Part shown: in pieces, positions 9,101 through 44,963 of the stretch | Layout of the letters: each line of letters opens with the position of its first letter | Position numbering within the stretch: the first letter of the stretch is position 1 | From: Chthoniobacteraceae bacterium | GTDB taxonomy: Bacteria > Verrucomicrobiota > Verrucomicrobiia > Chthoniobacterales > Chthoniobacteraceae | Direction: 5' to 3' | DNA length: 64,000 nt | NCBI GenBank assembly: GCA_028293625.1 | Contig: JAQGOL010000002.1 | Coordinates: 62,001-126,000 of the forward strand | Made by a program: the position numbers and the translations under genes | The notes under the pieces: generated by a model | What the model saw: the letters and a program-made list of their open reading frames with translations, nothing else | Databases searched by the model: none | What the model was told of the DNA's origin: nothing

Positions 9101-9267
9101 ATGGCGGTTTGTTTACGTTCGGCGCCAATCAGTTCCAGCTCGATTATGACGCGGGCGGCTCAAACGTCGTGCTGACTGCCGTGCCGGAGCCGACGACGGC
9201 AGCCGCGCTTCTGGCAGGGCTCGGCACGCTGCTCGGCCTGCGCCGCCGCAGGAACCCGGCGCTTTAA
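3175..9267 (+). CDS. Giant autotransporter-type beta-strand-repeat protein with PEP-CTERM sorting signal
   Basis: This is a 2,030-residue exported protein. A signal peptide (hydrophobic residues ~10-30, ending ARAQAQS-like) is followed by a very Gly/Ser/Thr/Asn-rich body. At least nine copies of the passenger repeat seen in autotransporter-associated families occur, e.g. ANSYSGGTTVNNGATLQLG, ASTFTGGLTISAG, ASSYTGATSINAGRLQLNG and ANTFSGGLTISEGSL. Two long modules (around nt 4800-5200 and 7050-7440) are clear duplicates, both containing GSTYTLASYNTLTNP and WNN...GPW.NYTP. The C-terminus is not an autotransporter barrel but VPEPTTAAALLAG, a hydrophobic stretch and LRRRRNP, a PEP-CTERM signal for exosortase processing. 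A surface or biofilm-matrix fibre is likely. No exosortase gene lies in the window. Confidence 0.93.
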   Translation: MRFSLNPPVLSTSIAAFLGLALLGVRAQAQSNGVFSNSGALGFGDETANVGLNPAKTYLEAIDLGDTTDSTVNGVPFTGSGAAAAPSGTGWAITGTLNLFGGGGTIPGGEVGALTNKFIYGGLPATLTLSDLTVGQTYVVTLYNRSWDSAGLRVQNITASGASVGSTVFDEDTGASGQGNLNLLRYTFQAGSSTQSLAIAPQLVGNTMHLYGFSTEQTFNNTLISGTTWSNATWSLGQPDGVGSNASFGPAAAPTTFNLESARTLGHLQFDGTNAWTLSGVDPLTLQADVGGVSVLSTLAGAHSISAPIVLNSDAVKLGAGSLSLNGTISGANALNVSAGTLTLGAANSYSGGTTVNNGATLQLGVAGALGATTGNLTVNGSGLVNLNGNTHSVGNLSGTGTISNNASGTNVTLTIGTGSVTDATFGGTIADHTTGTGTVALTKVDASTATLSGANSYSGLTTITAGKLQLDGAAAAGTLSTSGINIDAAGALGFTAGAGSTLSLKAGSTLSLGGGTIVMDVGDVAASDKISASTLALTANSAFVFRPISALDIGSTYTLASYNTLTNPNNFSATGSVIGRLTITPVIGANAITMVPSLDSGIWNNPTGGTWSDGPWSNYTPTAAGDSALFGSALAANGTVSIDSARSVGYLTFNNGTASYTLGTAGSSNLTIDNGDNRGIIDVNAGTHTILENVALASNLSVTADQGASLTMRGVISGAKGVSKFGQGTLILTNAHTYSGGTTILGGTLQLGNGVANGSVTGGILNNAALTFNNANAQTAPNAISGTGSVLKLGAGTLILSGASTFTGGLTISAGMVDVGGDTALGSVTGPILNNSTLRFSRTGVTTINSVVNGTGNTIIAGGASQTLAAGASINTPRLTIGDYSQGYLYFSSPNQLNGTTGVLLTIGAHAANSRINLNGFSQTISGLIGAGIVQSAEGGTVAPATLTINVPGTNSYSWTGLIRNQALSGPLSLTKTGTGEQVMNFAITDPNYTGATTVNQGRLVFGSTLAAPIWNTSGISVDAGAEVGLTGAGTGVVSWSEGVVISGAGGLTRTGADNNTVTITNRNNSFTGATKLSGTGILSVNSLANIGNNSAIGKGTAVANAASLILDGGKLRYTGAAASSDRLFTLTQNGGTLDASGSAALNLTNSGAVATSGTGARNLILTGTNVGNNTLAAALTDGAGGGTSLTKNQDGTWVLTGASSYTGATSINAGRLQLNGNAAASPLTTVNLSVNSGGTLGFTSGTGGTLTLANTLTLNGGTTVIDLGTATGSDQITAGTLVIAADSVLRFNQIAIYDFGSTYTLASYNTLTNPGNFKVTGFAAGRLALNPVVGAKAITLTPTLDNAVWNNSGGGAWSSGPWVNYTPNAVGDAALFGPALTSSAVVVVDSPKTAGYLTFNNSTASYTIGTQGSANLTLANTGTAAAQITVTAGTHTIAEDVTLASDLVIFSNASTALNLNGALVGPANSVTKSGGGTVTLNGTNNFGTGVGAGFNINQGTVVLGSAAALAADTRVAVNGGTLDLNSNDTTIGHLSGSGGVVTDRSTAGGTTTLTIAQAGNSTFTGALSDGSARTLAVVKSGVGSLTLNGANTFSGGLTISEGSLIAANGTGIAVPGSVTLGTGIGSAWLISGASAQQYGADTVVTFNNGGLDAKLELRGTTQTLAGVDSSTNQNLSIIQNDEATSPGYTSAPGSATLVLNTATDHSFYGIIRNQDGGALGITKEGVGTQELIAHSTIQGFTYSGPTIINKGELILNLSGAPSPGFASDITVNAGGTLGLDGNWTLSRPVNGAGDVIKQGFNTVTVSGALNHTGNTTIAAGSLILTGSLSGSPSIDVQNGAILDVSGVASGFKVGAAQTLKGNGTVLGAVAVNGKLAPGNGIGTLTTDALAFGTASVLALEINTGAVTGLLGASDLVSVNGSFSLASGAGGSSTLSLTDLGGNVHVANNTQFTLVTYSGGWNGGLFNVDGNVIPDGGLFTFGANQFQLDYDAGGSNVVLTAVPEPTTAAALLAGLGTLLGLRRRRNPAL

Positions 9268-18879: not shown

Positions 18880-21831
18880 TTACCGGGGCACAAGCCAGGT
18901 GCCGCCCAGGTAATCGTGCGGGCCGCGTTCCAACCGGTGAAGAGACCAAAGTGTTCCGCCCAGCGCGAGCGCCAGCGCCGCAATCGCAATTTCCACGGCG
19001 AGACGAAACGTCTCCCCCTGCAAGGTTGGCGCCATCGCCATTGCCACTCCGGCAATGAAGATGGGACTCCATCCAAGCAATCCTCGAACGAGCACCCGGA
19101 CGCGGGAGGCAGTGCGGCCATTCGCCCCCACAATCGCAAGATCATTGAGGCGCAGCAACGGGGGTGTGCCGGCAATGGCCGCCCAGATCAGGCCAAGGAA
19201 CGCGCCGGCAGCCAGGATCACGGCGCCGATTCCGAGCGGGATAAGGAAAGCGGCGTGTTTCTCGAATTGACGCATTTCCCGCAGCTGGGGTTTAAGGGCG
19301 AGTTCCGCTTGCCTGAGTTCCCCGGGAGTGACCGCCGGGCGCATCCGCACGGCCATGTCGATCAGGTCGCGCATGGCACGGGTGTCGCTTTGCTCGGCAA
19401 TCGGTCCGCTCCAAAACGGGTTGGCGCCTTTCAGGTCGCCGTAGCGTCCGGCCAGGACGGTGTAACAATTGGCGAGGACAGCCAGATCGGAGTTGCTGTC
19501 GTGGATTGCAATAATCTGGCGTGGCGAGACGCGTCCGGGCTGCGCCTGCGTCCATTGCTCTTCAAATCGGCGTGTCTCATGCAAATCGAGTTTTGTCCCG
19601 ATCAGCGCGAGAAACAGAGCGGCCATGATCGGTGCCGCCACGCTGATAAGCCGGGGGCGTAAGGAGATGGCAGCAGGTTTTTCAAGATCGGCCCGGAGAT
19701 TGCCCGCGACCAGCGCCATCGCTTCAAAACGGCTGGCCTCCAGGGTCTCGATAAATTGACGGGCATGGAGTGGTCCGCGGGGGGCGAGGGCCGCGCGGCC
19801 AATCGCGGAAAGAAACTCCTGCGCCTGAATCTGATTTTCGATCGAGGCGCGGGCCATGATCGGAGCGCCGGGAGCGGGAAAATCCAAAAGCACGACACGG
19901 CCATCGCGGGTCATCCACAAAGAATCGAACCCGATTTGGTTGGGCAGAGTGCCGTCATCGAGTCCGGCCCGGAATTCATCCGCGAGGTCAAACAGCCAGG
20001 TGCGGAGTTGCGACCATGGCTGTCCGGCGTCAAAGAGCTCAAGGAGCGGACGGCCTTCAGGCGCCTCGTAGGCGTCCCAATTTCCCTCAACGCCGCGCAT
20101 GCCCGACAACCAGCGGAGCCGCCCAGGCCGGCCAAGATCGCGCCGCGCAACGGCCAGGGGCGGCGTTTCCACCGGCCATTGCCGAATCCAAACGTGCCGG
20201 CGTAATGCTTCATCAAATGCCAGGATGAGCGCGCCGCCAACCTGTGGGCCCGTGATAAAAGGGCCAATTTTCCGGCCATCGGCGGGAACCGGCGGGAAAG
20301 CGGGAACCGGCACAGCGCGCAGGGCCAGGGGGGCCGGAGCGATCACTACCCGTGTCTTGGTCAGCAGATCGTAAACGGTGGCGAACCCGTTGCGACGGCG
20401 CATGGTCACGTAGAGGAGCAGAAGCAGGGGGATCGGCAAAACATCCTCCCAGAAGAACATCGACTGAATCCAGCCTGCGCGATACTCGGCTCCGGTGTGG
20501 TTAAGCAGCACAAAGGCGGCGTGGCAATACGCGGCAAAAGCAATCACACCCCACCGCGCCAATGAACGGCTCATTCCGGGCACATCCCCGTTGAGGCGAA
20601 CCACGCGCAGCCCGCAAAGTGTCTTGCCCAGACCCGCACCCCAGCGGCCTTCGGGCAGGATAACAGCCACGATTTCCCAGAGCCACATTGCCACGAGAAT
20701 GGCGGCGGCCGCGGCATTCCTGTTGATCAGAAAATTGGTTTCGGGATCAAAGCCAATGGCTCCCATCGCCACAATCCAGGGGACCGCGACGACGAGGGCA
20801 TCGATCAGGCCCGCCAGCATTCGCAGGCTGAGCGGCGCCGGTTCCGGCGCCAGGGAGCGGAAAGGAAGGAGGGCCGTTCGCAGGACATTGTAATTGTCAA
20901 AGCGGGCCGCCGCCTGGCGGCTTAAGCAGCGCATGACGATCCGGCAGAGCGCCGCAGGTAGTTCAGGGCGGAGCTTTTGCGGATCAACGGGATCGCGTTC
21001 CAGCACGGCGGCAATGAGCGCGACCAAAGTGGGCGCGTCGTGGGCCGGCTCTCCCGTGAGCAGGAAATAGAGGGTGGCGCCAACCGAATAAATGTCGGAG
21101 CGCACATCAATCTCCCGGGCCCTCAGTTGTTCCGGCGACGCGAATGCGGGCGTGCCGAGAACCGTGCCGGAATGGGTGAGTTGCCGCTCGGCTTTGACCA
21201 GGGTGGAAATGGAAAGCCCGAAGTCGCCAATCTTCACCGTGCCACCGGCGCCGGCAAAACAGTTGGCTGGTTTGATGTCCCGATGCAACACCCCGCCGGC
21301 ATGGGCAGCCTCCAGGCCGTCGATGATTTGCAAAACCGCGTCGACCGCTTCCGCCATCGGCATTGGCCCGGATTCCCTGACTCGATCCTTGAGCGTGCCA
21401 CCGGGCACAAGTTCCATGGCGATCACGGGAACGCCCTCGATCTCTTCAGTGGAAAAAACCGTGACTGAATTGGGATGCCGAATGGCGGCCGCAAGCTGGC
21501 CTTCGCGCAGGAAACGCTGGCGCATCTCCGGATTATCCAGGGTGTGTCCAAGCACTTTAAGCGCGACGCGCCGTCCGGTTGAACGTTGTTCGGCTTCATA
21601 CACGGCGCCCATTCCGCCTTTGCCCAAAAGACGCACGATTTGATAACCGCCGAATTCAAACGGTTCGAGAATGCTACCGTCGGGAGTCAATCCGATGGCC
21701 GTGGCGGGCAGGGTGCCGCTGGCGAGCTGGCTGGCCAGGCCGAGGCGAAGAAGACAGCGCGGGCAAAGGCCGCCGGCGTCGGCGGCGGTGAGGGCGGTGC
21801 CACATTCCAGACAGGAGGAGAGAGGATTCAT
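18880..21831 (-). CDS. Membrane Ser/Thr protein kinase with zinc ribbon, RDD domain and a degenerate second kinase-like domain
   Basis: This 983-residue protein starts at MNPLSSCLECG. A zinc ribbon (CLEC ... CPRC) is followed by a complete Hanks kinase: glycine loop LGKGGMGAVYEA (~70), Lys in VALKVLG (~92), HRDIKPAN (~183), DFGLSI (~203) and SPEQL. An RDD membrane domain (~340-500) begins LRMLAGLIDALVVAVPW. Residues ~515-655 look like a worn second kinase fold: GPFITGPQVGGAL, then LRRHVWIRQW, then DGRVVLLDFPAPG in place of a DFG loop, without an HRD. A final hydrophobic region with several helices follows. The sigma-factor gene 50 bases upstream is the usual genomic partner in Planctomycetes and Verrucomicrobia. 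Confidence 0.92.
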   Translation of the reverse strand: MNPLSSCLECGTALTAADAGGLCPRCLLRLGLASQLASGTLPATAIGLTPDGSILEPFEFGGYQIVRLLGKGGMGAVYEAEQRSTGRRVALKVLGHTLDNPEMRQRFLREGQLAAAIRHPNSVTVFSTEEIEGVPVIAMELVPGGTLKDRVRESGPMPMAEAVDAVLQIIDGLEAAHAGGVLHRDIKPANCFAGAGGTVKIGDFGLSISTLVKAERQLTHSGTVLGTPAFASPEQLRAREIDVRSDIYSVGATLYFLLTGEPAHDAPTLVALIAAVLERDPVDPQKLRPELPAALCRIVMRCLSRQAAARFDNYNVLRTALLPFRSLAPEPAPLSLRMLAGLIDALVVAVPWIVAMGAIGFDPETNFLINRNAAAAAILVAMWLWEIVAVILPEGRWGAGLGKTLCGLRVVRLNGDVPGMSRSLARWGVIAFAAYCHAAFVLLNHTGAEYRAGWIQSMFFWEDVLPIPLLLLLYVTMRRRNGFATVYDLLTKTRVVIAPAPLALRAVPVPAFPPVPADGRKIGPFITGPQVGGALILAFDEALRRHVWIRQWPVETPPLAVARRDLGRPGRLRWLSGMRGVEGNWDAYEAPEGRPLLELFDAGQPWSQLRTWLFDLADEFRAGLDDGTLPNQIGFDSLWMTRDGRVVLLDFPAPGAPIMARASIENQIQAQEFLSAIGRAALAPRGPLHARQFIETLEASRFEAMALVAGNLRADLEKPAAISLRPRLISVAAPIMAALFLALIGTKLDLHETRRFEEQWTQAQPGRVSPRQIIAIHDSNSDLAVLANCYTVLAGRYGDLKGANPFWSGPIAEQSDTRAMRDLIDMAVRMRPAVTPGELRQAELALKPQLREMRQFEKHAAFLIPLGIGAVILAAGAFLGLIWAAIAGTPPLLRLNDLAIVGANGRTASRVRVLVRGLLGWSPIFIAGVAMAMAPTLQGETFRLAVEIAIAALALALGGTLWSLHRLERGPHDYLGGTWLVPR

Positions 21832-21881
21832 AGGTTCACTCCTGCAAAAGGAAAATGGCATGAATGGTTACCGAAAAAGTT

Positions 21882-29280: not shown

Positions 29281-30003
29281 ATGAATAAATCAACTGCATT
29301 CCAGCGCCGCATCATTCTTGGCGCGTTCGCGATTCTTGTCAGCTCTGTCTCTTTCGGCAGCACACTGGCCAACGGAGGCTTTGAGTCCGGCACCTCGGGA
29401 TGGACCGAGGCCGGAGGAAGCGGTCTCTTTTCCACGGTGTCATCGTTGCCCGGATTCTATCAGACAATCAATCCGCCTCAGTCCGGCGCGTTCGGCTTGC
29501 TCTCCAACAATGGAGTGGATGCCGAGAGTATCTCGCAAACATTCGAGATTACCGACAACTATCTGATTTTCAGTTATCGGTTTTTGACTGATGAATACAA
29601 TAGCGGACCGGATTACAACGACTCGGCACATGCGACTCTTACCATAGGCGGAGTTACGAGCTTTCTCTTAACGCTCTCCCGGGATCAGCTCCAGGCTGGC
29701 GGAGAAGAGGCACTCCTGAATGGCGCGGCTTTTTTAGATAACAGCGAGTCGGGTCATGATATCGGCCAGAGCGCATGGCAGACTTTGGCGGTCAATGTCT
29801 CCTCATTCATTGGCCAGCCGGCGACGCTCTCTTTTGATCTGAACAACGTCAACGACAGCACCTCTGATATTGGAGTCAGCCAGCTTGGCGTGGATGACGT
29901 TCACTTTGCTTCTGTTCCGGAACCCGCTTCTGCCACCGTGGCATTCTTTTTAATAGGAATGGCTGGAATCGCACGCTTGCGCCGAGCGAGCTCTGTAGCG
30001 TAA
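29281..30003 (+). CDS. PEP-CTERM sorted extracellular protein
   Basis: This 240-residue protein has a signal peptide (residues ~10-28), a jelly-roll-like body (NGGFESGTSGWTEAGGSG, ISQTFEITDNYLIFSYRFL, DDVHF) typical of choice-of-anchor or carbohydrate-binding-like domains, and a C-terminal PEP-CTERM signal: VPEPASATVAFFLIGMAGIA then RLRRA. It would be cleaved by an exosortase, which is not in the window. It is coupled by a 6-base gap to the haloperoxidase-like gene and is followed by a strong terminator. Confidence 0.9.
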   Translation: MNKSTAFQRRIILGAFAILVSSVSFGSTLANGGFESGTSGWTEAGGSGLFSTVSSLPGFYQTINPPQSGAFGLLSNNGVDAESISQTFEITDNYLIFSYRFLTDEYNSGPDYNDSAHATLTIGGVTSFLLTLSRDQLQAGGEEALLNGAAFLDNSESGHDIGQSAWQTLAVNVSSFIGQPATLSFDLNNVNDSTSDIGVSQLGVDDVHFASVPEPASATVAFFLIGMAGIARLRRASSVA

Positions 30004-33000: not shown

Positions 33001-35154
33001 TCATCGGCGCGACAGCTTGGCGGCCGCATCGATCAGTGGGTCGCGCCCATGCAGGAAGTCATCGAAAGAGGGGCGAGCTACTGATAGATCCGGCATCAAG
33101 GGGCCGTGGGCACCATAATGGGCGGAAATTTTTTGTGTCGGATAAAATATCTGGATTTGAGTATTCGGCAGCGTAAGGGGCTTGGGCGCCGAATAGAAAG
33201 CGAGTTCTCCGCCAGTTGGTTCACCCATAAGAACCGCCCCCAACTCCTCTTTTAGCGCCAGCGCATTGATGACCGTCGCGGAGTTTGAGCCGTTTCCAAT
33301 CAGAACCCGGATGCGTCCGCTTGAAAAAATAGGCGAGCGCTGCTTCAAGCCACGCATAAGCGGCGCGATTAAATCAATCTTTCCGCCTGCATTAAACCTT
33401 AGATCGATGATTATTTGGGAAGCTGCACGCTCGTCAGCCAGGCGAAGCATGGCATGCGCGAACTGGGCGAATGAACCAAACGGATTGTCCGCGCGATCCA
33501 TACATGAGTCGTATCGTATGTAGAGTGTATTCGGATACTCCTGAAGAATACCTCCCCAGTAATTTTGGGCATGCTTCAACTGGTCGGCCGGCATCGGCGA
33601 TATCAACGGGGGCCGGGACGAGGAAAGGAGAGACTCTGCCATGGCGGAAGCCTGCGAAGGGGCAATTACGATTTCCTGGATCGCGCCATTGTCATCCATA
33701 CAACGCAGGGGAAGGCTCCTGTCCTCGTTTGTGAGTTTGAGCATTTGCAGGAGTCCAGGCCAATTCAACGCATTGGGGATGCACTGATGGAGCCAAAACC
33801 TGTTCTCGCAGGAGAGGTAAGGAGAAATCATCTCCTCTACTTTATCAGGAGTCGTTGCGCCGAATCCGGCAACGCGCAACGTTTGCGACGGGGAATCAGA
33901 TGCGCCGTCGTTGACGCGAGTGAATACAAGGGCATCAGAAAGCCAGTCAAAGCGAACCGGATAAACGTTCTGCTGATGAGCGATCACGTAGGAATGAGCG
34001 ACGCGCAGCTTGGCGATCACTCTTCTGATTTGAAGCGCGATTTGCGCATTGCCTGAGGTCGGCACGCTCAATTTGATCTGGTTGATCTCAGCCTTGAACG
34101 CGCTCTCCGACATCAGTCTGTCAAAGTCGAGATGACTTTCCGGATATTCAGATGCCAGGAAATCGAGGTCGTCGAGCCAGCCGGCATTCCGCTCTGCGGG
34201 ACGGGCTCCCGGATGAGCTTTGGAGGTCGTGCGCGCCATCAGAGCGCCGAGCATGCTGCATATTGCAAAAAGAATAACAAGCCGGAGAGCGCCGCGATTG
34301 CCGCACCGATAGGTGGAAAGCGCCGTGAGTAGCACGACAACGCCGAGGTAAGCGCTGCAGATGGCCGCGATTTGGCTCGTTGTGTGCCGGCCAAAACCAT
34401 AAGGATAATCGGCAAATCCGTTCAGCAGGAACGTCAGGAACGCGTTCGCCGTGATCAACGAGAAGATCGATGCTCCTCGGTAGCGGGCAATTCCGAAAGG
34501 GACGGCAACCAGCGCGAGCATGAGCGCCCGCTCCAATCCACGGCTTGTATCCAGGCCGACACCTCCGAGCCGATCAATCAAGCATACATGCCATACTCCA
34601 AGCAATACGCTGCTGAGGACGATGCCAAGCACGCGCCGCCGTCTCAACGCTTGGACCAAGAGACCGTGAAACCATAGTTCCTCCACCGCTGAAACCGCAC
34701 CGATTCTCCAGGCATCAGAGAAGTTAAAAAAACCGGAGGCGCCCGGTTCAAAAGTAACAAATAGTAAAGAGCCCAATCCCAGAATCAATCCCAACGCCAG
34801 ATGCGACTGGCGAAATGGATGCGAAAATTCTTCCTTCGGAAGGAACCGCAAAGCAAGGGCCACTCCAACCGCCAGATCGACAAAGGGCAGAAATAAAATA
34901 ATGGCGCTTCGGATCGCCCCCTCATAGCTCCACTTGATGCCGTGAACATCAAAGAAAAAATGGTACGAGTAGCTATTGCCGTAACTAAGCCACACGGCAT
35001 CGAGAGGAATGAGGGTTGATGCGAAAAAAAGAATCCAAAGTGCTGCCACCGCGAGTTTAATTACAACGCTTTCTGGCTGCCGGTGCGGCTCCGTTGCACG
35101 GCTGCGAAACGCGCCGAAGGCGGCTTGCGACTTCCGGAAAAGAGAGTGAGTCAT
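33001..35154 (-). CDS. Fusion of CPBP intramembrane metalloprotease and S41-like serine peptidase domains
   Basis: The 717-residue protein has two parts. Residues ~30-305 are membrane helices carrying CPBP (CAAX protease and bacteriocin-processing) motifs: SAVEELWFHGLLVQALRR, an EExxF site at 158-162 with His in place of the usual Arg, and LLGVWHVC with His 189. Residues ~320-717 are an exported tail like C-terminal-processing S41 peptidases: IIIDLRFNAGG at 581-591, a candidate nucleophile in GNGSNSATVIN (Ser 623/625) and MGEPTGGELAF. No PDZ domain is visible. The joining of two protease folds in one chain is unusual. It stands alone, downstream end facing the D,D-carboxypeptidase. Confidence 0.78.
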   Translation of the reverse strand: MTHSLFRKSQAAFGAFRSRATEPHRQPESVVIKLAVAALWILFFASTLIPLDAVWLSYGNSYSYHFFFDVHGIKWSYEGAIRSAIILFLPFVDLAVGVALALRFLPKEEFSHPFRQSHLALGLILGLGSLLFVTFEPGASGFFNFSDAWRIGAVSAVEELWFHGLLVQALRRRRVLGIVLSSVLLGVWHVCLIDRLGGVGLDTSRGLERALMLALVAVPFGIARYRGASIFSLITANAFLTFLLNGFADYPYGFGRHTTSQIAAICSAYLGVVVLLTALSTYRCGNRGALRLVILFAICSMLGALMARTTSKAHPGARPAERNAGWLDDLDFLASEYPESHLDFDRLMSESAFKAEINQIKLSVPTSGNAQIALQIRRVIAKLRVAHSYVIAHQQNVYPVRFDWLSDALVFTRVNDGASDSPSQTLRVAGFGATTPDKVEEMISPYLSCENRFWLHQCIPNALNWPGLLQMLKLTNEDRSLPLRCMDDNGAIQEIVIAPSQASAMAESLLSSSRPPLISPMPADQLKHAQNYWGGILQEYPNTLYIRYDSCMDRADNPFGSFAQFAHAMLRLADERAASQIIIDLRFNAGGKIDLIAPLMRGLKQRSPIFSSGRIRVLIGNGSNSATVINALALKEELGAVLMGEPTGGELAFYSAPKPLTLPNTQIQIFYPTQKISAHYGAHGPLMPDLSVARPSFDDFLHGRDPLIDAAAKLSRR

Positions 35155-35518: not shown

Positions 35519-35536
35519 TTATAAGAAAGTTTTATA
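35366..35536. repeat. 171-base segment bounded by 13-base perfect inverted repeats
   Basis: TATAAAACTTTCT at 35366-35378 is the exact reverse complement of AGAAAGTTTTATA at 35524-35536. The right arm encodes the last codons of chrA (...YKTFL-stop). The segment also contains the 35401 hairpin and the GCGCGCAATTT repeats. It could be a miniature inserted element or only a long-range terminator; no target duplication is evident. Confidence 0.4.
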
Positions 35537-36859
35537 AAGTATCCCTAAAGCGCCCGCGGCGAAGACGACTGGGATGATGCCCCACTTCCATCGCAATAGG
35601 CCGGTGAAAGTAATTGCGGCAACGGTGATCGCGAACCAATCAGCCGTGTGGTTGCCTGGAAAGAGGACGTGCAAGCCAAACCAGACAGCCAGGTTGGAGA
35701 TCACGCCAACTACTGCGGCCGTGACGGATGAAAGCGATGCGGACAAATTTTTGTTCCCACGCAATTGTTCAATATGAGGCGCGCCGAGAAAAATCCAGAG
35801 GAAGCACGGGATGAACGTAGTCCAGGTCGTGATAAATGCTCCAATGGTCGCACTCAGGAGCGGCGATAGGGAGCCGGGTTGGTTCCAGCCGCCCAGAAAT
35901 CCGACAAATTGCAGCACTATAATGAGCGGGCCCGGGGTGGTTTCCGCGAGGCCAATTCCGTCCAGCATTTGCGTTGCAGCCAGCCAGTGATGCGTCTCAA
36001 CGGCCTGCTGGGAGACGTATGGCAGCACTGCGTAGGCTCCGCCAAAAGTCACCATGGAAGCTTTACTGAAAAAGATTGCCTCGCGAAAAAGCGCGTGACC
36101 AGTTCCAAGCCACAATCCAAGCGCGAGCACCGGGCAAATCCAAAGTGTACCCCATGTGGCAAACACCTTCAAAGCCCGGCCAATCGATGGCCGGGTATGC
36201 TCGGCTGATTCCGCTTCATCGCTGATCACTGTCTCGTGCGCAGACGCAGTAGACGCTGCATCGTGGCCGCCGATAACCAGAAACTTGTCGGGCCGTACCT
36301 TCCCTCCAATAAAACCGATCAGAGCCGCAGCCACAATGATGAGTGGGAACGGCACTTTCAGGAAAAAAATCGCGATAAAAGCGAGTGCCGCAAGCGTCCA
36401 CATCACCTCGTTTTTCAGAGCCCGTCCGCCGATGCGGATCACAGCGGAAGCGACAATCGCGAGCACGGCCGGCTTTAATCCATAGAAGAGCGCGGCTACC
36501 CAAGGGAGCGCGCCGTAACTTACATAGATGAAGCTAAGCGCCCATAAGATGAACATGGATGGAATGACAAAGAGCGCTCCGGCAACCACTCCGCCCGCGG
36601 TTTTATGCAGCAGCCAGCCGACATAAGTGGCGAGCTGCTGCGCTTCGGGTCCGGGTAGCAGCATGCAGTAGTTCAGCGCGTGCAGAAACCGCGCCTCGCT
36701 TATCCAGCGTTTCTTCTCCACCAACTCCGAATGCATGATCGCGATCTGGCCCGCCGGGCCGCCGAAGCTGATCAATCCCAGTTTGAACCAAAAACGGGTG
36801 GCCGCACCGAATGAGGGACGCACTGGGGAACGCGGTTTTTCGACGGTGGAATCGTTCAT
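35519..36859 (-). CDS. chrA: Chromate efflux transporter ChrA
   Basis: This 446-residue CHR-superfamily long-chain transporter has two homologous halves. The family motif appears as FGGPAGQIAIMH in half 1 with LPGPEAQQLATYVGWLLHK, and as FGGAYAVLPYVSQQAVETH with GLAETTPGPLIIVLQFVGFL in half 2. It exports chromate from the cytoplasm using the membrane potential. Its start overlaps the stop of the beta-propeller gene by 4 bases. With DUF1259 and divergent chrB it forms a chromate locus. Confidence 0.95.
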   Translation of the reverse strand: MNDSTVEKPRSPVRPSFGAATRFWFKLGLISFGGPAGQIAIMHSELVEKKRWISEARFLHALNYCMLLPGPEAQQLATYVGWLLHKTAGGVVAGALFVIPSMFILWALSFIYVSYGALPWVAALFYGLKPAVLAIVASAVIRIGGRALKNEVMWTLAALAFIAIFFLKVPFPLIIVAAALIGFIGGKVRPDKFLVIGGHDAASTASAHETVISDEAESAEHTRPSIGRALKVFATWGTLWICPVLALGLWLGTGHALFREAIFFSKASMVTFGGAYAVLPYVSQQAVETHHWLAATQMLDGIGLAETTPGPLIIVLQFVGFLGGWNQPGSLSPLLSATIGAFITTWTTFIPCFLWIFLGAPHIEQLRGNKNLSASLSSVTAAVVGVISNLAVWFGLHVLFPGNHTADWFAITVAAITFTGLLRWKWGIIPVVFAAGALGILYKTFL

Positions 36860-37869
36860 TCAGCGGGGTTCAGATCGTAAATACGAATCTCTGCGCTCTG
36901 TGCACCCCAATGAGGAACGGCCAGGTAAAAGGCGCCGAACTTTGCGCTATAGAAGGCGGTCCTTGCGCCGGGAGCGGTGGAGAGTTGCTGTGTCCGGACA
37001 AGGCTTGCCGGCGCGACATATTGAAACACGTCAATGAATCCATCCCCGCATGAAGCAAGGAGGCGGTTGGTTGAAGCCTCAAAGAAAAGATCGTCCACAT
37101 CGCCGCTCATCGGAGTTTCCGCGATCGGTTTTCCCAGGGCTGTATCAAACGTGACCAACTGCGCGGGCTGGCGGCACCCTACAAACAGGCGGTGTTCATT
37201 AAGGGCCATTGGGAAGTTCGCGTGCAACTTTCCCATCAGCCACGTTGCCACGACTTTGCCTTCCACACGGTCTACCACGGCAATCCGGTTAGCACCCGGT
37301 ATGTTCACGAAGATGCGTGGACCATCCTGCTCCAACTGGAAGGCTTCGGGATGTTTTGGAAGAAAGATATTACCAACGAGCTTCCTTGTGGCTGGATCGA
37401 TGACTCCGAGCGCTCCCTCTCCATAGCCGAGATAGATGCGTTGTGCTTTTGCATCAAAGCGCAGGTTGTCGGCATCCTCCAGACCTGTAAGGCGGCTATG
37501 TTCCTTGTAGCTTGTGCCATCGTAGAAGCGGCATGTGCCATCATCGCCGTTTGCCACGACCAACAGATTGGAGTCAGGCAGAAACAGCACGCCCGTTGGT
37601 TTACTTAACCCGGTGATGGTGTGCAGACGTTTTCCTGAAACTACCTCCACAACTTCGAGCGTGTTATTTTCTAAAGCCGCGAAAAAGAGCCGGTGCGTCG
37701 CAGGATCGAGGGCGGCGTGATCGAAGCGGCCTTCCACTCCGGGTAGTGCGATGGCCGCCTTCAGCCTTGGCGGTGGCGCTGTTCCCTCCCCATCGAGTAA
37801 TCCAGTCAGTAGCAGGCTGACAAAAGAGATAAGCACGTGGCTCATACCTTTTTCATTGAGAATTCTCAT
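36856..37869 (-). CDS. Exported YncE-like beta-propeller protein in the chromate operon
   Basis: The ~337-residue protein has an N-terminal hydrophobic export segment (MSHVLISFVSLLLTGLLDG) and repeated propeller blades such as RFDHAALDPATHRLFFAAL, HTITGLSKPTGVLFLPDS, LRFDAKAQRIYLGYGEGAL and FEASTNRLLASCGDGFIDV. This is the YncE/lactonase-like seven-blade family; no enzyme site is clear. The start at 37869 forms an ATGA overlap with the DUF1259 stop; a second ATG at 37845 follows. Its stop also overlaps the chrA start. Such tight coupling implies a role tied to chromate export or sensing. Confidence 0.85.
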   Translation of the reverse strand: MRILNEKGMSHVLISFVSLLLTGLLDGEGTAPPPRLKAAIALPGVEGRFDHAALDPATHRLFFAALENNTLEVVEVVSGKRLHTITGLSKPTGVLFLPDSNLLVVANGDDGTCRFYDGTSYKEHSRLTGLEDADNLRFDAKAQRIYLGYGEGALGVIDPATRKLVGNIFLPKHPEAFQLEQDGPRIFVNIPGANRIAVVDRVEGKVVATWLMGKLHANFPMALNEHRLFVGCRQPAQLVTFDTALGKPIAETPMSGDVDDLFFEASTNRLLASCGDGFIDVFQYVAPASLVRTQQLSTAPGARTAFYSAKFGAFYLAVPHWGAQSAEIRIYDLNPAE

Positions 37870-38753
37870 TTCTTCTGAGTTCCGATCGCCGACTTCACGG
37901 TTTTTGCCAGCTCGACGGCGTTTCCTTTGCCCCAATAATGAAGGAACAGGTAGCGCGGCTCCTCCATGATCATGTGATGATGGATGGCAACGATATTTAT
38001 ACCTCCATCACGGAGCGTTTTTAGCACCGCTTGAAGCTCGGTTTCGAGCACACAGAAATCACCGTCCACAACAGCACTCTCATCCGTGCCGGCGAATGCC
38101 GCCCACGTATTGACCCCCATCTCTTTTCCTACTTCACAACCACACGGCATCTTGCTGACACGACCGAAGACAAACTTCGCCATTCCGTCCTTTGCTGTCG
38201 CCTTGCCGCCCATTTCAGCTTCCAAAGGTGCGCTGGTGATACTGTTAGCTCCAGGCGCGAATCCTTTGCCGAACATCTTCTCAGGCACGGGATTCACAGC
38301 CCGAATTTCTTTCGTTTTATCCAGCGCCGCCTTCACTGCCGCGCTGAGCTTATCCGCCGTACCCTCCCCGCCGATGTGCATAAAATACACTTTTGGTTCG
38401 TCGTAGAAGAAATGGTTATGCAAGGCGGTGACGCTTAACCCTGCATTGAGCGCCACACTCATGACGGGATTAACTTCATCCTGGAAGAGAACTAAATCGC
38501 CCATCACCATTGCTTCCTCTTTTTTACCGGGAAGAAAACTCGCCCAGGAGGTGAGTCCCATAAACGGGGGCATCTGCCAGCCGTCCACGTTGATTTTCAC
38601 ATCATTGCGCGGCGCGCTGACCTTGAAGACGCCTTCTGCTTCATTAAGGGCACCTTTTAATCCGGTGACGGCTTCGATCTTCGCCGTGTCGAGTGCGGCG
38701 AACGAAAGCGATGGGAGAATTGCGAGGAGGAAGAGGAGAGATTTGCTTTTCAT
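37866..38753 (-). CDS. DUF1259 (LppY/LpqO-like) exported protein with two tandem domains
   Basis: The 295-residue protein starts at MKSKSLLFLLAILPSLSFAA, a signal peptide. Two DUF1259 copies follow: copy 1 holds LNAGLSVTALHNHFFYDEPK with FMHIGGEG, and copy 2 holds DGGINIVAIHHHMIMEEPRY with FLHYWGKG. The His clusters look like metal ligands. The family has no proven function but is often beside chromate transporters. It heads the operon DUF1259 - propeller - chrA, with a 4-base overlap to the next gene. Confidence 0.9.
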   Translation of the reverse strand: MKSKSLLFLLAILPSLSFAALDTAKIEAVTGLKGALNEAEGVFKVSAPRNDVKINVDGWQMPPFMGLTSWASFLPGKKEEAMVMGDLVLFQDEVNPVMSVALNAGLSVTALHNHFFYDEPKVYFMHIGGEGTADKLSAAVKAALDKTKEIRAVNPVPEKMFGKGFAPGANSITSAPLEAEMGGKATAKDGMAKFVFGRVSKMPCGCEVGKEMGVNTWAAFAGTDESAVVDGDFCVLETELQAVLKTLRDGGINIVAIHHHMIMEEPRYLFLHYWGKGNAVELAKTVKSAIGTQKK

Positions 38754-38790
38754 AGAAGAGGGATTCTTTGCTTGGCGGATCAAACGCATT

Positions 38791-38804
38791 GAAATAGCTA
38801 TTTC
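38791..38804. promoter_or_regulatory. Perfect 14-base palindrome in the divergent chrB / DUF1259 promoter
   Basis: GAAATAGCTATTTC is fully symmetric and lies in the only 60-base gap between the two divergent transcripts, 9 bases before the chrB start and 37 bases upstream of the DUF1259 start. ChrB proteins are reported as chromate-responsive regulators in other bacteria, so this is a natural operator candidate. Binding is inferred. Confidence 0.55.
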
Positions 38805-38813
38805 TCTCCTGTT

Positions 38814-39752
38814 ATGACGTCAACATTCAACTTTTCTCAGGCTTGGCTCCTGTTTCTTTACACGCTGCCGGCGAAAGAAACGGCCGGGCGCGTAAACCTA
38901 TGGAGGAAGTTGAAAAAGACGGGCGCCTTGTCTCTTAAAACATCCGGATACGTATTGCCCGATGAGCCTGTTCACTTCGAGCGGTTCCAATGGTTTGTGC
39001 AACAGGTACGTGATGCTCGGGGCGAGGCCACGCTTGCGCGGGTGACAGCAATCGAAGGGCTGTCAAATGAAACCATCGCTTCCTTGTTCAATGAAGCGCG
39101 CGCCGAGGAATACGAGGCACTGATCAAGCTTCTCAATGATTTCATCGCAACCAACCGTAAGAAGCGTCTTGAAGGCTCCGAGGAGATTCTAAAGAAACTC
39201 CAGCGACAGTTTCAGGAACTGCGTGCGATCGACTATTTTTCGTGCCCGGCTGCCCATGACGTTGAAACGCTTCTTCAGCGTGCCGCCAAGTTGGCGGAGC
39301 CTCGGAAAAGATCCGCTAACTTACTTGTGGCAAAAGAGTATCAGCATCGAATCTGGCTGACTCGGCCGCGGCCTGAAATTGACCGTGTCGGTTCCGCCTG
39401 GCTCATACGCAAACACATTGACCCGCACGCCACGTTTGTTTTCGCGCCAATAAAAGAAGCGCATCCCGAGGCTCTTCCTTACGACATGCTGGATGTGGAA
39501 TTCACACATCACGGCGACGATTGCACCTTTGAGACGCTACTTAAACGCTTTGCAATCACCGACGCTGCTACCGGCCGTATCGGAGAGATGATTCACGATG
39601 CTGACATCGAAGATGGCAAATTTCAGCGCCCTGAATGCAGCGGACTTGACCTCCTCTTCAAAGGCTGGGCGCGTCTGGGCTGCAGCGACGCTGAGATATT
39701 GGAAAAAGGATTTGCGTGCTTTGACGCACTCCACGCATCACTACGGAAATAA
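38814..39752 (+). CDS. chrB: Chromate resistance protein ChrB
   Basis: The 312-residue protein has the ChrB N-terminal domain (LLFLYTLPAKETAGRVNLWR, KLKKTGALSLKTSGYVLP) and the C-terminal rhodanese-like ChrB domain (IWLTRPRPEIDRVGSAWLIR, KHIDPHATFVFAP, VEFTHHGDDCTFETLLKRF, IHDADIEDGKF). ChrB is a chromate-sensing regulator or accessory factor of ChrA. Here it is divergent from the chrA operon instead of upstream in it, with a palindrome between. Start is the ATG at 38814. Confidence 0.93.
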   Translation: MTSTFNFSQAWLLFLYTLPAKETAGRVNLWRKLKKTGALSLKTSGYVLPDEPVHFERFQWFVQQVRDARGEATLARVTAIEGLSNETIASLFNEARAEEYEALIKLLNDFIATNRKKRLEGSEEILKKLQRQFQELRAIDYFSCPAAHDVETLLQRAAKLAEPRKRSANLLVAKEYQHRIWLTRPRPEIDRVGSAWLIRKHIDPHATFVFAPIKEAHPEALPYDMLDVEFTHHGDDCTFETLLKRFAITDAATGRIGEMIHDADIEDGKFQRPECSGLDLLFKGWARLGCSDAEILEKGFACFDALHASLRK

Positions 39753-39983
39753 AAGACGGAGCAATCAGAATTCAATCCCAAGTCCGGCAACGCGATGGTT
39801 AAAGCGCGTTGCGATGCCTTTGGAGAGCGCGTTGAAAGCGTATGGCAATGGAAAAGTCCTGGCGGTTTGATAATAAATGTTACAAGACTGCTAGCTATGC
39901 GGGCACAGCGGCTGTAGGTGTTTCCGGCGGCAGTCTTCCAGCAAGCTGACGCACCCAAAATGCGACATGCCACCCCTCTTAGA

Positions 39984-42900
39984 ATGAAAACAGCTCGTAG
40001 CCGGATCTTAAGCATCCTCGCACTCCTTCTTCTTTTTGGAACACCAATCTGGGGAACGCCTGTCGTGACCATGCAGCCGCTGCAAAACCAGGTTGTTGAC
40101 GAAAATGTGCCTGTGACTTTCGCCATCGCCGCTGAGGGAAGCGGGGAATTGAGTTACCAGTGGTTTCATAACGGGGTGCCGGTTGCCGGAGCTAACGGGA
40201 ACACATTAACCCTGGCCAGTGCCCAGTATTCGGATCGAGGCTACTATCAAGCCAGAGTCGCGGACTCGACAGGGATGAGCCGCAGTCACGCGGCATTTCT
40301 CAATCTGCGTGTGGCCAATGAGATCGTCACCTGGGGAGGTTTAAATGTAATTGCGCCATCCGGACTCAACAACGTTCTGGCAATCAGCTTGGGAGATGCT
40401 TACGGGAGCTTGTCTCCAGACACGTACTGTTTCGTGCTTAAATCGGATGGAACCGTTGTTGGATTGGGTGGTGGAGCTCCTGCCGTACCGGCCGAACTTT
40501 CGGACGTTGTTGCCATTGCTGCCGGTGGCAGTCGCCGCACTTGTTTTGCACTTAAATCGGATGGAACGATGGTTGGCTGGACCGAGTTTCGCGAAGTGCC
40601 CGCGTACGTTCCGGCCGGACTTTCCAGAGTCGTGGCCATTGCGACACACGGCGACGTAGCGATGGCGCTCAAGGACGATGGAACGGTGGTCACATGGATT
40701 ATCGGGTTCGCCCCGGACAATGATCAATTCGCCCGCGAAACCGATGTCATTGCTATTGCCGCCGGCCATGAGACGATGCTGGTGTTGAAATCAGACGGCA
40801 CAGCCGTTCCTGCGACTCGCTTTGCCGGGGCGCCTACTGACCTGGTGGCGATCTCTGAGGGGGGGACCAGTCCCACTTTTAGTCTCGCACTTCGATCCAA
40901 TGGAACTGTTATTTCCAGCCTTGGCGATGTTCCGGCCGGACTTTCTGATGTCATCGCGATCGCGGCGGGCTTTTCGCATTCTCTGGCTTTAAAAGCAAAC
41001 GGCACGGTAGTTGCCTGGGGCGATAATTCAAAGGGGGCTGCAACAGTTCCCGCCGGGCTTTCCGGAGTGATAGCTATCGATGCGGACTTTCACACCAGCG
41101 GCGTCATTAGAAGGATAGTGAAGCCGCTCATCACAGTTCAGCCGCAACCGGCTTCCCAGACTTTGGCTTCTCTTTCTTCTATTACTTACTCGGTGACGGC
41201 CACGGGCAATGGCTTAAGCTATCAATGGAACAAGGATGGCGTCCCGATTCCCAGCGCCACGGAAAGTACATATACCAATGGCCGTCTCGATCCCAACGAT
41301 AGCGGCAGCTATACGGTGACAGTCAGCAACGCTCTTGGGAGTGTTACCAGCAACGGCGCGGCTCTTTTGGTGAAAGGTCCCGCATTCACAAAAAATCCTG
41401 AGCCAAGCCAGGTTGTTAATAACAGTGCAGCCGTCACAATGAACGCTGTGGCCACCAGCACAGGAGCGATCACCTATCAGTGGCTGCATAACGGACTGCC
41501 GGTTGCCGGCGCCACTGGAACTTCAATGACGTTGGCCCATGCCCGCTATAGCGATCGCGGCTACTACCAACTCAAAGCCACGGATGCCTCCGGGACAACC
41601 ATTAGCAAAGCCGGATTTATAAATGTCCTGGTTCCGGCCACCCTGAAGGTTTGGGGTTACAATCGAGATGGCTTAAACACACCGCCCGCCGGGCTTTCCG
41701 GCGTCGTCGCATTCTCAGCGGGAGAGAATCAGAATTTGGCACTTAAATCCGATGGCACGGTTGTCGCATGGGGCTCGGACGACGCGGCAAACCAAGTGCC
41801 GCCAGGGCTTTCAAATGTGGTTGCGATCTCCTGCAAAACTTTCAATGTGGCGCTTAAGTCCGACGGCACCATTGTTGCCTGGGGCAAACCTTACAGCGAT
41901 CAGCGTGCGGCATTTTCAGGCCTTTCCGACGTTGTCGCCGTGAGCGAGCACTTTGTGGTGAAATCCGACGGAACGGTCGGCTCCTGGGGCTTTCCAGGCG
42001 AGCAGCCTCCTGTTGTTGGGGCGGGATTCTCGGATGTCTCCGTCATCTCCGCGAGCGGAACTCATCTTCTTGCTCTCAAAACCAACGGCACCGTGCGTGA
42101 TTCTTATTCCTGGAAGGGAAATCCCGTGCCCTTTTGGCTCGCGAACGTGGCGGCCGTTTCGGTCTGTGATTCATTCAGCGCGGCTGTGAAGACCGATGGA
42201 ACCGTGGTCACTTGGAATTACGACGGTTATGGACGCTCCGCTATACCCGCGGAGTGTTCGGAAATCGCCGCTATTTCTTCAGGCGCCGATCATGTTGTGG
42301 CCCTGAAGTCTAATGGAACGGTTGTGGCCTGGGGCAAACCCAACCCCAATTTTGGCGGGCAAGAGGCTGTGCCGGCAACGCTGGGCGATGTCATTGCCAT
42401 TGATGCAGGCAGTTATTACAATCTCGCGCTGGAGATCCCATTGCCTGTTCCCGCGGTCACCACGAAAGCGGCTACTGCAATTTACTCCGGCTCAGCCACT
42501 TTTAACGCGGATGTCATCCCGGGCGGCTTTCCGGCGACTTTTAACGGTGATGACATCCCGGGCGGCCTTCCAGCCAATGTCTACTTCCAACTCCGCACCG
42601 AGGCGTTCTCTTACGAGACCGTGACAAGGACGCAGGAAGTGGGCAGCGGAAACACGCAAGTCGCTATCAGCGCATCGGTTGCCAATCTGCCTGCCGGCAA
42701 GACACTCTACTACCGCGCGGTGGTGACCAATGGCCGCGTCATCATTTATGGAGCTGATCAAGCGTTTATCACTCTGCCTCTTCCGCCGTTGGTGACCGCG
42801 GTTAACTCGGGAACTGCCACACTCTCCGGCTTGTTTAACCCGAATGGACTGACAGCGAGCGCTTATTTTGAATATCAAACCGGGGCCGGCCCCGCCCTCC

Positions 42901-44963
42901 AGACCATCGCCCAGGAGTTTGGCGCCAGCAATGCGCCTGTTACTCTGATGCAGACTTTAAGCGGTTTGCAGGGCGGGCAGACTTATCAAGTCCGCCTGGT
43001 TAGTACTAGCACGGCTGGAACGTCCTATAGTGACTACCAGATATTTTTCACCGCTACCAACCCGCGTCCGTCCGTAAGAAGTGCCTCGGTGTCTGGAGTT
43101 CCTTCCCTTAACCTGCTTTTCAATGCGAGCATCAATCCGAATGGATTGGCAGCCAACGTCTACTTTGAATATGGCGCGACCAACGCATACGGGAGCAAAA
43201 CCGCACCGCAAAAAGTGACGGCGGGTTATAGCGAGGTGACCGTAAGCGCCACGGTAAATGGACTGCTGGAGAACCCGGTTATTCATTACCGGGCCGTGGC
43301 TTCGAACTTGAATGGCATCAGCTATGGCGAAGACCAGACTTTTACGGGAAGCGCGGCAGCGCCTGCTCTCTCAAAGCCGTTTTCCAGCGTGCGAATCAGC
43401 GGGGATCGAATCGTGGTCAGCGGCACGTGCAATCCAAATGGTGCCGCAACCAATTTGCGCGTCGAATCACGTGGTTCCGGCTATACCAGCGTCAGAGCTA
43501 CTCAGGAAATTGGAAGCAGTTTGGTGCCGGTGCCAATTTCCTTCACTCTAACAAACGATGGCTATAATTTTCCTTACAATGTAGACCATTACATAGTTGT
43601 CGCCACCAACGCGCTGGGCACAGATTCCGCCTCTTTAGTATTTAAAACATCTGTATCTGCATTGGCAGTGGATGACATTATAAGCGGCGGAGCCAAGCCG
43701 TTTCGAATCAACGTGCTTGCCAACGACACTTCTTTTAATGGTTATAGGCGAGCTATCTCATCAGTTACTCAAGGCACCAGCGGCACGGTTTCAATCAAAT
43801 CTGACCTAACTATTCAATATTCGCCCGGCAGCAATTTCACTGGTTCAGATACATTTACCTATACGATTCCAGACGGGCTGGGCGGTTTTTCAACCGCAAC
43901 TGTAAAGATTCTTGGCGATTCCATCGTGACTCCAGGCACCTACGTTGGCCTGGCGCTTTCCAATTCGCCGCTTCATGAGACTGGCAGTTATCTGCGGGCA
44001 ACCGTCACAAAAACCGGAGTGATGAGCGGCCGCTTGCAATATGCGGGCTACAGCTTCGCGGTAAAAGGTTCCTTAGCTTTTGGCAACACTGTCACCATGA
44101 GCATCCAGCCGCCTGGGCAGCCTTTACTTTCGGTCAACTTTAGCGCGGGAGAGATGGGCGGAGCGCCGATCAAAGTCGTTGCGTACCATCAAACCGGAGC
44201 AACGGCGCCGGTCGTGGAGTTTGAAGCGCACCACTCCCCTTATTCAAGAACCAGCCCGTGGGATTTGCCGGCAAGGTATACCGCCACACTTTCTTTAGAA
44301 ACTAACTCAAGCGATCCCGCCCTGCCCAAAGCAGCCGGATACGCTGCGATCATCATAAACCGGCTTGGAGCTGCACGCGTTGTTGGCAAGCTGGGCGATG
44401 GCACGCCGATTTCCGTAGAGGGTCTCGTGGACGACACCCGCCAGCTTCCCTTCTATACTGGACTCTATGGCAGGAACTCCGGCAGCAAGGGGAGCATCTT
44501 CGGAAAGATCAACTTCCAGACGCTAGAGAACGTGCCGCAATGCTCGGGGTTGCTCTATTGGCATAAACCTGCGCAGGCCGGCGATCGGCGTTACTCCAAT
44601 GGCTTCACAACGAAGCTTAGCCTGACCGGCGGATCTTATACTTCGTCCGCGCCAGCGCTTACGCTGCTGAAGGCGCAGCCTAACGCGGACTTGACCATCA
44701 GCGGCGGCAACCTGGCAGATGAGATGCACAAGGAACTCAGCGTTGCTTCGTCCTATCGGGCACGCATTACGAACCCGGCGGCTGATCGCATGGCAGTGCG
44801 TTTTAATCCCGTGACAGGATTTTTCTCCGGCAGTTTCCGGGACATCTCACAGAATGTCACCCGAACCTTTAATGGTGTGCTCCTCCAACACGAAAACATC
44901 GGCACCGGGCTCTTTTTAGGCGAATCTGAGACTGGCGGGGTGCTTCTTAAGCCAAGGCCGTAA
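39984..44963 (+). CDS. Giant secreted protein with Ig-like, RCC1-type, fibronectin-like and cadherin-like repeats
   Basis: About 1,659 residues long, with a signal peptide (MKTARSRILSILALLLLFG). The layout: Ig-like domain (~25-110, SYQWFHNGVPVAGANG); an RCC1-type propeller block (~113-375, repeats with LKSDGTVVGLGGG and SHSLALKANGTVVAWGDN); two Ig-like domains (~380-550); a second RCC1 block (~552-817, LKSDGTVVAWGSDD); fibronectin-like repeats (~820-1215, e.g. GLTASAYFEYQTG); one Ig/cadherin-like unit (FRINVLANDTSF, GSDTFTYTIPDGLGG); and a C-terminal beta domain (GTYVGLALSNSPLHETGSY). A GTG at 39918 or ATG at 39960 are other starts. It has no PEP-CTERM. A surface recognition protein is likely; partner unknown. 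Confidence 0.88.
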   Translation: MKTARSRILSILALLLLFGTPIWGTPVVTMQPLQNQVVDENVPVTFAIAAEGSGELSYQWFHNGVPVAGANGNTLTLASAQYSDRGYYQARVADSTGMSRSHAAFLNLRVANEIVTWGGLNVIAPSGLNNVLAISLGDAYGSLSPDTYCFVLKSDGTVVGLGGGAPAVPAELSDVVAIAAGGSRRTCFALKSDGTMVGWTEFREVPAYVPAGLSRVVAIATHGDVAMALKDDGTVVTWIIGFAPDNDQFARETDVIAIAAGHETMLVLKSDGTAVPATRFAGAPTDLVAISEGGTSPTFSLALRSNGTVISSLGDVPAGLSDVIAIAAGFSHSLALKANGTVVAWGDNSKGAATVPAGLSGVIAIDADFHTSGVIRRIVKPLITVQPQPASQTLASLSSITYSVTATGNGLSYQWNKDGVPIPSATESTYTNGRLDPNDSGSYTVTVSNALGSVTSNGAALLVKGPAFTKNPEPSQVVNNSAAVTMNAVATSTGAITYQWLHNGLPVAGATGTSMTLAHARYSDRGYYQLKATDASGTTISKAGFINVLVPATLKVWGYNRDGLNTPPAGLSGVVAFSAGENQNLALKSDGTVVAWGSDDAANQVPPGLSNVVAISCKTFNVALKSDGTIVAWGKPYSDQRAAFSGLSDVVAVSEHFVVKSDGTVGSWGFPGEQPPVVGAGFSDVSVISASGTHLLALKTNGTVRDSYSWKGNPVPFWLANVAAVSVCDSFSAAVKTDGTVVTWNYDGYGRSAIPAECSEIAAISSGADHVVALKSNGTVVAWGKPNPNFGGQEAVPATLGDVIAIDAGSYYNLALEIPLPVPAVTTKAATAIYSGSATFNADVIPGGFPATFNGDDIPGGLPANVYFQLRTEAFSYETVTRTQEVGSGNTQVAISASVANLPAGKTLYYRAVVTNGRVIIYGADQAFITLPLPPLVTAVNSGTATLSGLFNPNGLTASAYFEYQTGAGPALQTIAQEFGASNAPVTLMQTLSGLQGGQTYQVRLVSTSTAGTSYSDYQIFFTATNPRPSVRSASVSGVPSLNLLFNASINPNGLAANVYFEYGATNAYGSKTAPQKVTAGYSEVTVSATVNGLLENPVIHYRAVASNLNGISYGEDQTFTGSAAAPALSKPFSSVRISGDRIVVSGTCNPNGAATNLRVESRGSGYTSVRATQEIGSSLVPVPISFTLTNDGYNFPYNVDHYIVVATNALGTDSASLVFKTSVSALAVDDIISGGAKPFRINVLANDTSFNGYRRAISSVTQGTSGTVSIKSDLTIQYSPGSNFTGSDTFTYTIPDGLGGFSTATVKILGDSIVTPGTYVGLALSNSPLHETGSYLRATVTKTGVMSGRLQYAGYSFAVKGSLAFGNTVTMSIQPPGQPLLSVNFSAGEMGGAPIKVVAYHQTGATAPVVEFEAHHSPYSRTSPWDLPARYTATLSLETNSSDPALPKAAGYAAIIINRLGAARVVGKLGDGTPISVEGLVDDTRQLPFYTGLYGRNSGSKGSIFGKINFQTLENVPQCSGLLYWHKPAQAGDRRYSNGFTTKLSLTGGSYTSSAPALTLLKAQPNADLTISGGNLADEMHKELSVASSYRARITNPAADRMAVRFNPVTGFFSGSFRDISQNVTRTFNGVLLQHENIGTGLFLGESETGGVLLKPRP
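42498..42575 (+). repeat. 39-base tandem duplication inside the RCC1/Ig gene
   Basis: Two adjacent 39-base units encode TFNADVIPGGFPA and TFNGDDIPGGLPA. The unit is in frame and adds 13 residues at the start of the fibronectin-like part. Confidence 0.85.

Follow-up and report, generated by a model that had tools for sequence, protein, structure and literature searches.

CPBP (Rce1-like) proteases (PF02517) are membrane proteins of eight helices, with a Glu-Glu pair in TM4, a histidine in TM5, and a third motif in TM7. In MrtX and MmRce1, the first and third of these motifs take the form EExxxR in TM4 and HxxxN in TM7 (PMC11980579). In MmRce1, Glu140 and His173 act as the catalytic pair, and the enzyme is severely impaired when Glu141, His227, or Asn231 is mutated (PMC12067869). 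For SpdC (LyrA) of S. aureus, a CPBP protein associated with the external hydrolase SagB, a partner role without protease activity has been proposed (PMC12214887, PMC12272431). A kinship between PrsW and CPBP proteins has been remarked upon in a paper on polymorphic toxins (PMC3482391). CPBP domains also occur in a described fusion family, NCBIfam NF041647, in which the partner is an ABC permease.

The S41 peptidases (PF03572) include CPAF and tricorn, with a Ser-His-Glu active site, the Prc/CtpA type, with a catalytic Lys behind GEPTxG, and a set of stand-alone proteins without a PDZ domain, which we found in Phycisphaerales (L030-L034), Terriglobia (L029), and Ensifer and Bosea (L035-L048) and which share the fold of 4GHN. 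An S41-type fold can also exist without peptidase function, as in the IRBP proteins. A search of the open-access literature for a fusion of CPBP and S41 returned nothing relevant.

Here, we analyze a gene that joins the two families, located in a window of 64,000 nucleotides (the whole stretch of DNA under study) from a Chthoniobacteraceae bacterium. The fusion is real, apparently unique, and carries altered residues in both active sites. Our preferred but tentative reading is a fusion specific to one lineage, with the CPBP half acting as a scaffold that keeps an S41-type domain at the membrane, on its outer side.

The gene runs on the minus strand from 35154 to 33001 and comprises 717 codons with an ATG start and no internal stop, whereas the plus strand over the same interval holds many stops. 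It is the sole copy in its genome, where four further S41 genes and three ordinary CPBP genes that stand alone were also found. The initial annotation had placed a single uninterrupted frame here and had named its halves CPBP and S41; both points hold, since both Pfam families score above their curated cut-offs, PF02517 with 33.6 bits (cut-off 22.4) over residues 154-240 (34435..34695, minus strand, as for all features below), and PF03572 with 38.7 bits (cut-off 24) in the C-terminal half. A local profile of 32 CPBP relatives matches nearly the same segment (residues 153-242). NF041647, in contrast, is not the family of this protein, which it matches weakly (10.3 bits against a cut-off of 435).

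Nine hydrophobic helices are predicted, at residues 28-48, 77-103, 113-134, 145-171, 175-196, 203-225, 230-247, 259-282, and 288-310, of which hydropathy alone finds seven. The first eight form the CPBP/Rce1-like membrane domain (residues 28-282, 34309..35073), with E158-E159 in TM4 and the third motif in TM7, the positions of EExxxR and HxxxN in MmRce1 and MrtX; H189 falls in TM5. The presumed inner loops hold 17 Lys and Arg residues against four in the outer loops, consistent with a cytoplasmic N-terminus. Nine helices combined with this positive-inside pattern place the C-terminus, and therefore the S41 half, outside the cytoplasm, in agreement with the previously suggested topology of a membrane half followed by an exported peptidase-like half. 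TM9 (residues 288-310, 34225..34293) lies at the position of the signal peptide or anchor of the stand-alone S41 relatives, and many of these align by BLAST from query residues 274-320 onward, a start that coincides with or closely follows the hydrophobic stretch at their own N-terminus. We read TM9 as a signal anchor inherited from a stand-alone S41 enzyme without a PDZ domain. In the simplest history, we infer, a CPBP gene was joined to an S41 gene and the signal anchor was retained. GTG274, ATG301, and ATG306 are possible internal starts, and a separate S41 protein made from one of them is conceivable, but no strong Shine-Dalgarno sequence was found just 5' of any of the three.

The active site of the CPBP half was compared with that of 32 CPBP proteins from the same genome and its relatives. 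These were picked by a motif that permits either Arg or His after the Glu pair and that does not use the third motif; every picked locus gave a sequence with Arg even though His was allowed, so the Arg count is little biased. The catalytic dyad residues are present: E158 and E159 lie in the first motif, EELWFH (residues 158-163, 34666..34683), and H189 (34588..34590) corresponds to a His found in 32/32 relatives. Around them, conserved positions have changed. H163 takes the place of the Arg of EExxxR (Arg in all 32 relatives), an Arg-to-His replacement that had already been noted at this locus, and L185 takes the place of the Phe of FxxxH (Phe likewise in all 32). The third motif reads NAFLT (residues 237-241, 34432..34446), with N237 and T241 in place of the His (32/32) and Asn (29/32) of the HxxxN oxyanion motif; an HMM built without the fusion protein reproduces this register. 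Beyond H189, the CPBP half contains just one more His, H257, which lies in a loop on the outer side. The earlier description of the site as EE followed by two histidines therefore stands for the Glu pair and H189, but not for the third motif. Comparison with the MmRce1 residues indicates that the dyad has been kept and the oxyanion pair changed. The protease site is thus altered and, as far as these motifs can tell, probably weak or inactive, although Asn237 could still help to hold an oxyanion. The half itself modelled with low confidence (the mean pLDDT of a single-sequence model was 51.6, too poor for a structure search), and its fold is therefore assigned from sequence profiles; hhalign of this half against the alignment of relatives aligned motifs 1 and 2 only.

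The S41 half (residues 320-717, 33004..34197) is better defined. AlphaFold2 with 19 relatives modelled most of it well, with pLDDT values of 70-97 except at about residues 500-530, and no PDZ domain was recognized. Among solved structures, 4GHN fits best (Z 27.2 over 340 residues), followed by matches that include CPAF (Z 19.3 over 356 residues), tricorn (Z 10.9), and IRBP. The half thus models as an S41 fold; a non-peptidase model would have counted against the original proposal. Identity is about 22-30% to the stand-alone relatives over the whole half and 13-16% to CPAF and tricorn.

The two motifs first picked out from the sequence are confirmed: DLRFNAGG spans residues 584-591 (33382..33405), with D584, R586, N588, G590, and G591 invariant in 49/49 S41 relatives, and GEPTGG spans residues 644-649. 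The presumed catalytic His387 (33994..33996), in the sequence AHS, is found in 48/49 relatives, and the presumed nucleophile Ser625 (33280..33282) in 47/49. The His, the Ser, DLRxNxGG, and GEPxG are thus shared with the stand-alone proteins, whereas two features are not: the nucleophile is preceded by SN (giving SNS), where nearly all relatives have TF (giving TFS), and residue 656, within a stretch that aligns without gaps from GEPTGG to LPN, is Ala (33187..33189) in a column that holds E in 35 relatives, D in 6, Q in 6, N in 1, and A in 1, and is therefore acidic in 41/49. Like CPAF and tricorn, and unlike Prc/CtpA, the protein has no Lys behind GEPTGG; E650 occupies that position, for which an S41 paralogue from the same genome (L007) reads GETTFGKG. 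The Glu of CPAF and tricorn, which we take to lie about six residues before a conserved Pro, would be Ala682 in the fusion, a position that is not conserved in its S41 subfamily.

In the S41 tree, the branch of the fusion is very long, and its nearest relative (support 0.90) is Terriglobia L029, which has Gly in place of the nucleophile. The half possibly still cuts exposed peptides through its Ser-His dyad, or it may be inactive, as Ala656, the altered TFS, and the Ser-less nearest relative would suggest. Two S41 relatives lack the nucleophile, namely L029 (4995-6305, Gly) and L061 (1129-2355, Ala), the latter also without the His; judged by these residues, both are likely inactive members of the subfamily.

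No second CPBP-S41 fusion was found in protein searches of 147 relatives, 387 genomes of the phylum, 399 genomes of the class of L029, and 397 of that of L030, or in a profile search of 384 genomes of the fusion's own class. These genome sets are samples, and BLAST cannot detect distant CPBP halves. A full-length pattern scan of genome contigs with the fusion protein gave no relative; another pattern scan of genome contigs yielded 21 S41 relatives, and plasmids gave 15. About 65 S41 relatives were read out, from Terriglobia, Phycisphaerae, Alpha- and Gammaproteobacteria, Bacteroidota, Rhodothermota, and other groups. All are stand-alone and lack a CPBP half, none shows more than one or two hydrophobic stretches, and a Pfam scan of 20 proteins recognized a CPBP domain in the fusion protein only. 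One relative (L109, 892-2694) has an N-terminal stretch that looks tetratricopeptide-like by eye. When the genomes that carry the nearest S41 relatives were searched for the CPBP half, there was no match, a weak result from a search run without a positive control, and neither phage and viral collections nor PADLOC gave a match. As far as was searched, all relatives of the S41 half are separate genes and the fusion is unique, the very finding that the initial annotation had named as counting against its proposal. With residues lost in both halves and the pair present in no other searched genome, the gene looks like a one-off fusion.

The neighborhood does not suggest a substrate. A chromate transporter lies 364 bases upstream on the same strand, accompanied by genes for a beta-propeller protein, a DUF1259 protein, and a divergent ChrB, and a convergent gene for an S11 D-Ala-D-Ala carboxypeptidase lies downstream. 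No small gene resembling a substrate was found on the strand of the fusion, which stands alone between these neighbors; the conserved small neighbors proposed as candidate substrates therefore did not materialize. The relatives of the flanking genes were not found as a kept pair in the three other species of the genus, and an empty site could therefore not be shown. The upstream genes form a chromate-resistance-like cluster at 35519-39752 (ChrA transporter, beta-propeller protein, and DUF1259 protein on the minus strand, with ChrB divergent). Elsewhere, the window encodes a small exported protein that ends in a PEP-CTERM sorting tag (29281-30003), a 993-residue protein in which a Ser/Thr kinase domain is fused to an RDD membrane domain (18880-21861), a 1681-residue protein with RCC1 repeats, Ig domains, and a Big_9 domain (39918-44963), and a 2030-residue, autotransporter-like protein with passenger-associated-transport repeats (3175-9267).

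In the scaffold model, the eight-helix CPBP half, its site altered, would serve mainly as a membrane anchor for the protein, perhaps with a partner in the membrane to which it binds. TM9, as the former S41 signal anchor, would leave the S41 domain hanging on the outer side of the cytoplasmic membrane. There, the domain would bind, and perhaps slowly cut, the exposed ends of extracytoplasmic peptides or proteins with its Ser-His dyad. The loss of the motif-3 His and Asn alongside retention of the S41 His and Ser speaks for this model, as do the fold matches to 4GHN and CPAF and the position of TM9 at the start of the stand-alone relatives. Against it, a pure scaffold has no need of E158, E159, and H189, the S41 half may itself be inactive, and the CPBP half modelled with low confidence, so that its fold is assigned from profiles.

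A possible though on balance unlikely alternative is that neither half is catalytically competent any longer, or that both are decaying. The protein would then be either a recent, weakly constrained fusion or a binding protein made from two former proteases. The changes that both halves show at conserved columns of their active sites fit this reading, as do the long branch, the Ser-less nearest relative, and the restriction to one genome; however, 717 codons are free of stops, and E158, E159, H189, H387, S625, and DLRFNxGG are all kept, more residues than one would expect to survive drift.

The initial annotation had proposed a two-step processing machine, in which cleavage by the CPBP half inside the membrane would release a tail for the S41 half to trim on the outer side. 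The domains and the topology are indeed the right ones, and the dyads E158/H189 and H387/S625 are kept; on the other hand, the CPBP oxyanion pair and the S41 acid column are replaced, and the fusion is not conserved. Since active-site residues are missing in both halves and no substrate-like neighbor exists, we regard this machine as an unsupported guess, and an improbable one. Two active sites working in sequence are nevertheless conceivable, because both dyads remain, but no other finding favors them. A true two-site membrane protease, with an unusual Asn...Thr oxyanion site in the CPBP half and a Ser-His S41 site, that releases and trims an exported protein or peptide is in our view a long shot.

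It is also very unlikely that both halves are active on unrelated substrates and are merely co-placed in the membrane by the fusion. The same intact dyads would allow it, and the three stand-alone CPBP genes of the genome encode complete proteins, so that this organism does not couple the two functions as a rule; the residues missing from both active sites argue against it. That the gene is an assembly or sequencing chimera is scarcely credible even though the fusion is confined to one draft genome of 43 contigs, for the gene lies internal to its contig, the frame is unbroken, nothing around residue 310, the place singled out earlier for a check, suggests a join, the two sides of the junction are alike in base composition (GC3 0.59 and 0.61) and both score positive for in-frame codon usage, and the junction coincides with a natural domain border.

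The scaffold model finds its nearest parallel in SagB-SpdC, which it resembles in its working only: a CPBP membrane protein that places an external hydrolase. There, the two are separate proteins and the hydrolase is a glycosidase, whereas the fusion is one chain. If the two halves do work together, the idea of a CPBP protein as the membrane partner of an external hydrolase would extend to a protease partner, and the gene would illustrate how one chain can combine the fold of an intramembrane protease with a tail-cutting protease on the outside. As it stands, with one gene in one genome, the finding is mainly a caution against reading a "double protease" from motifs alone.
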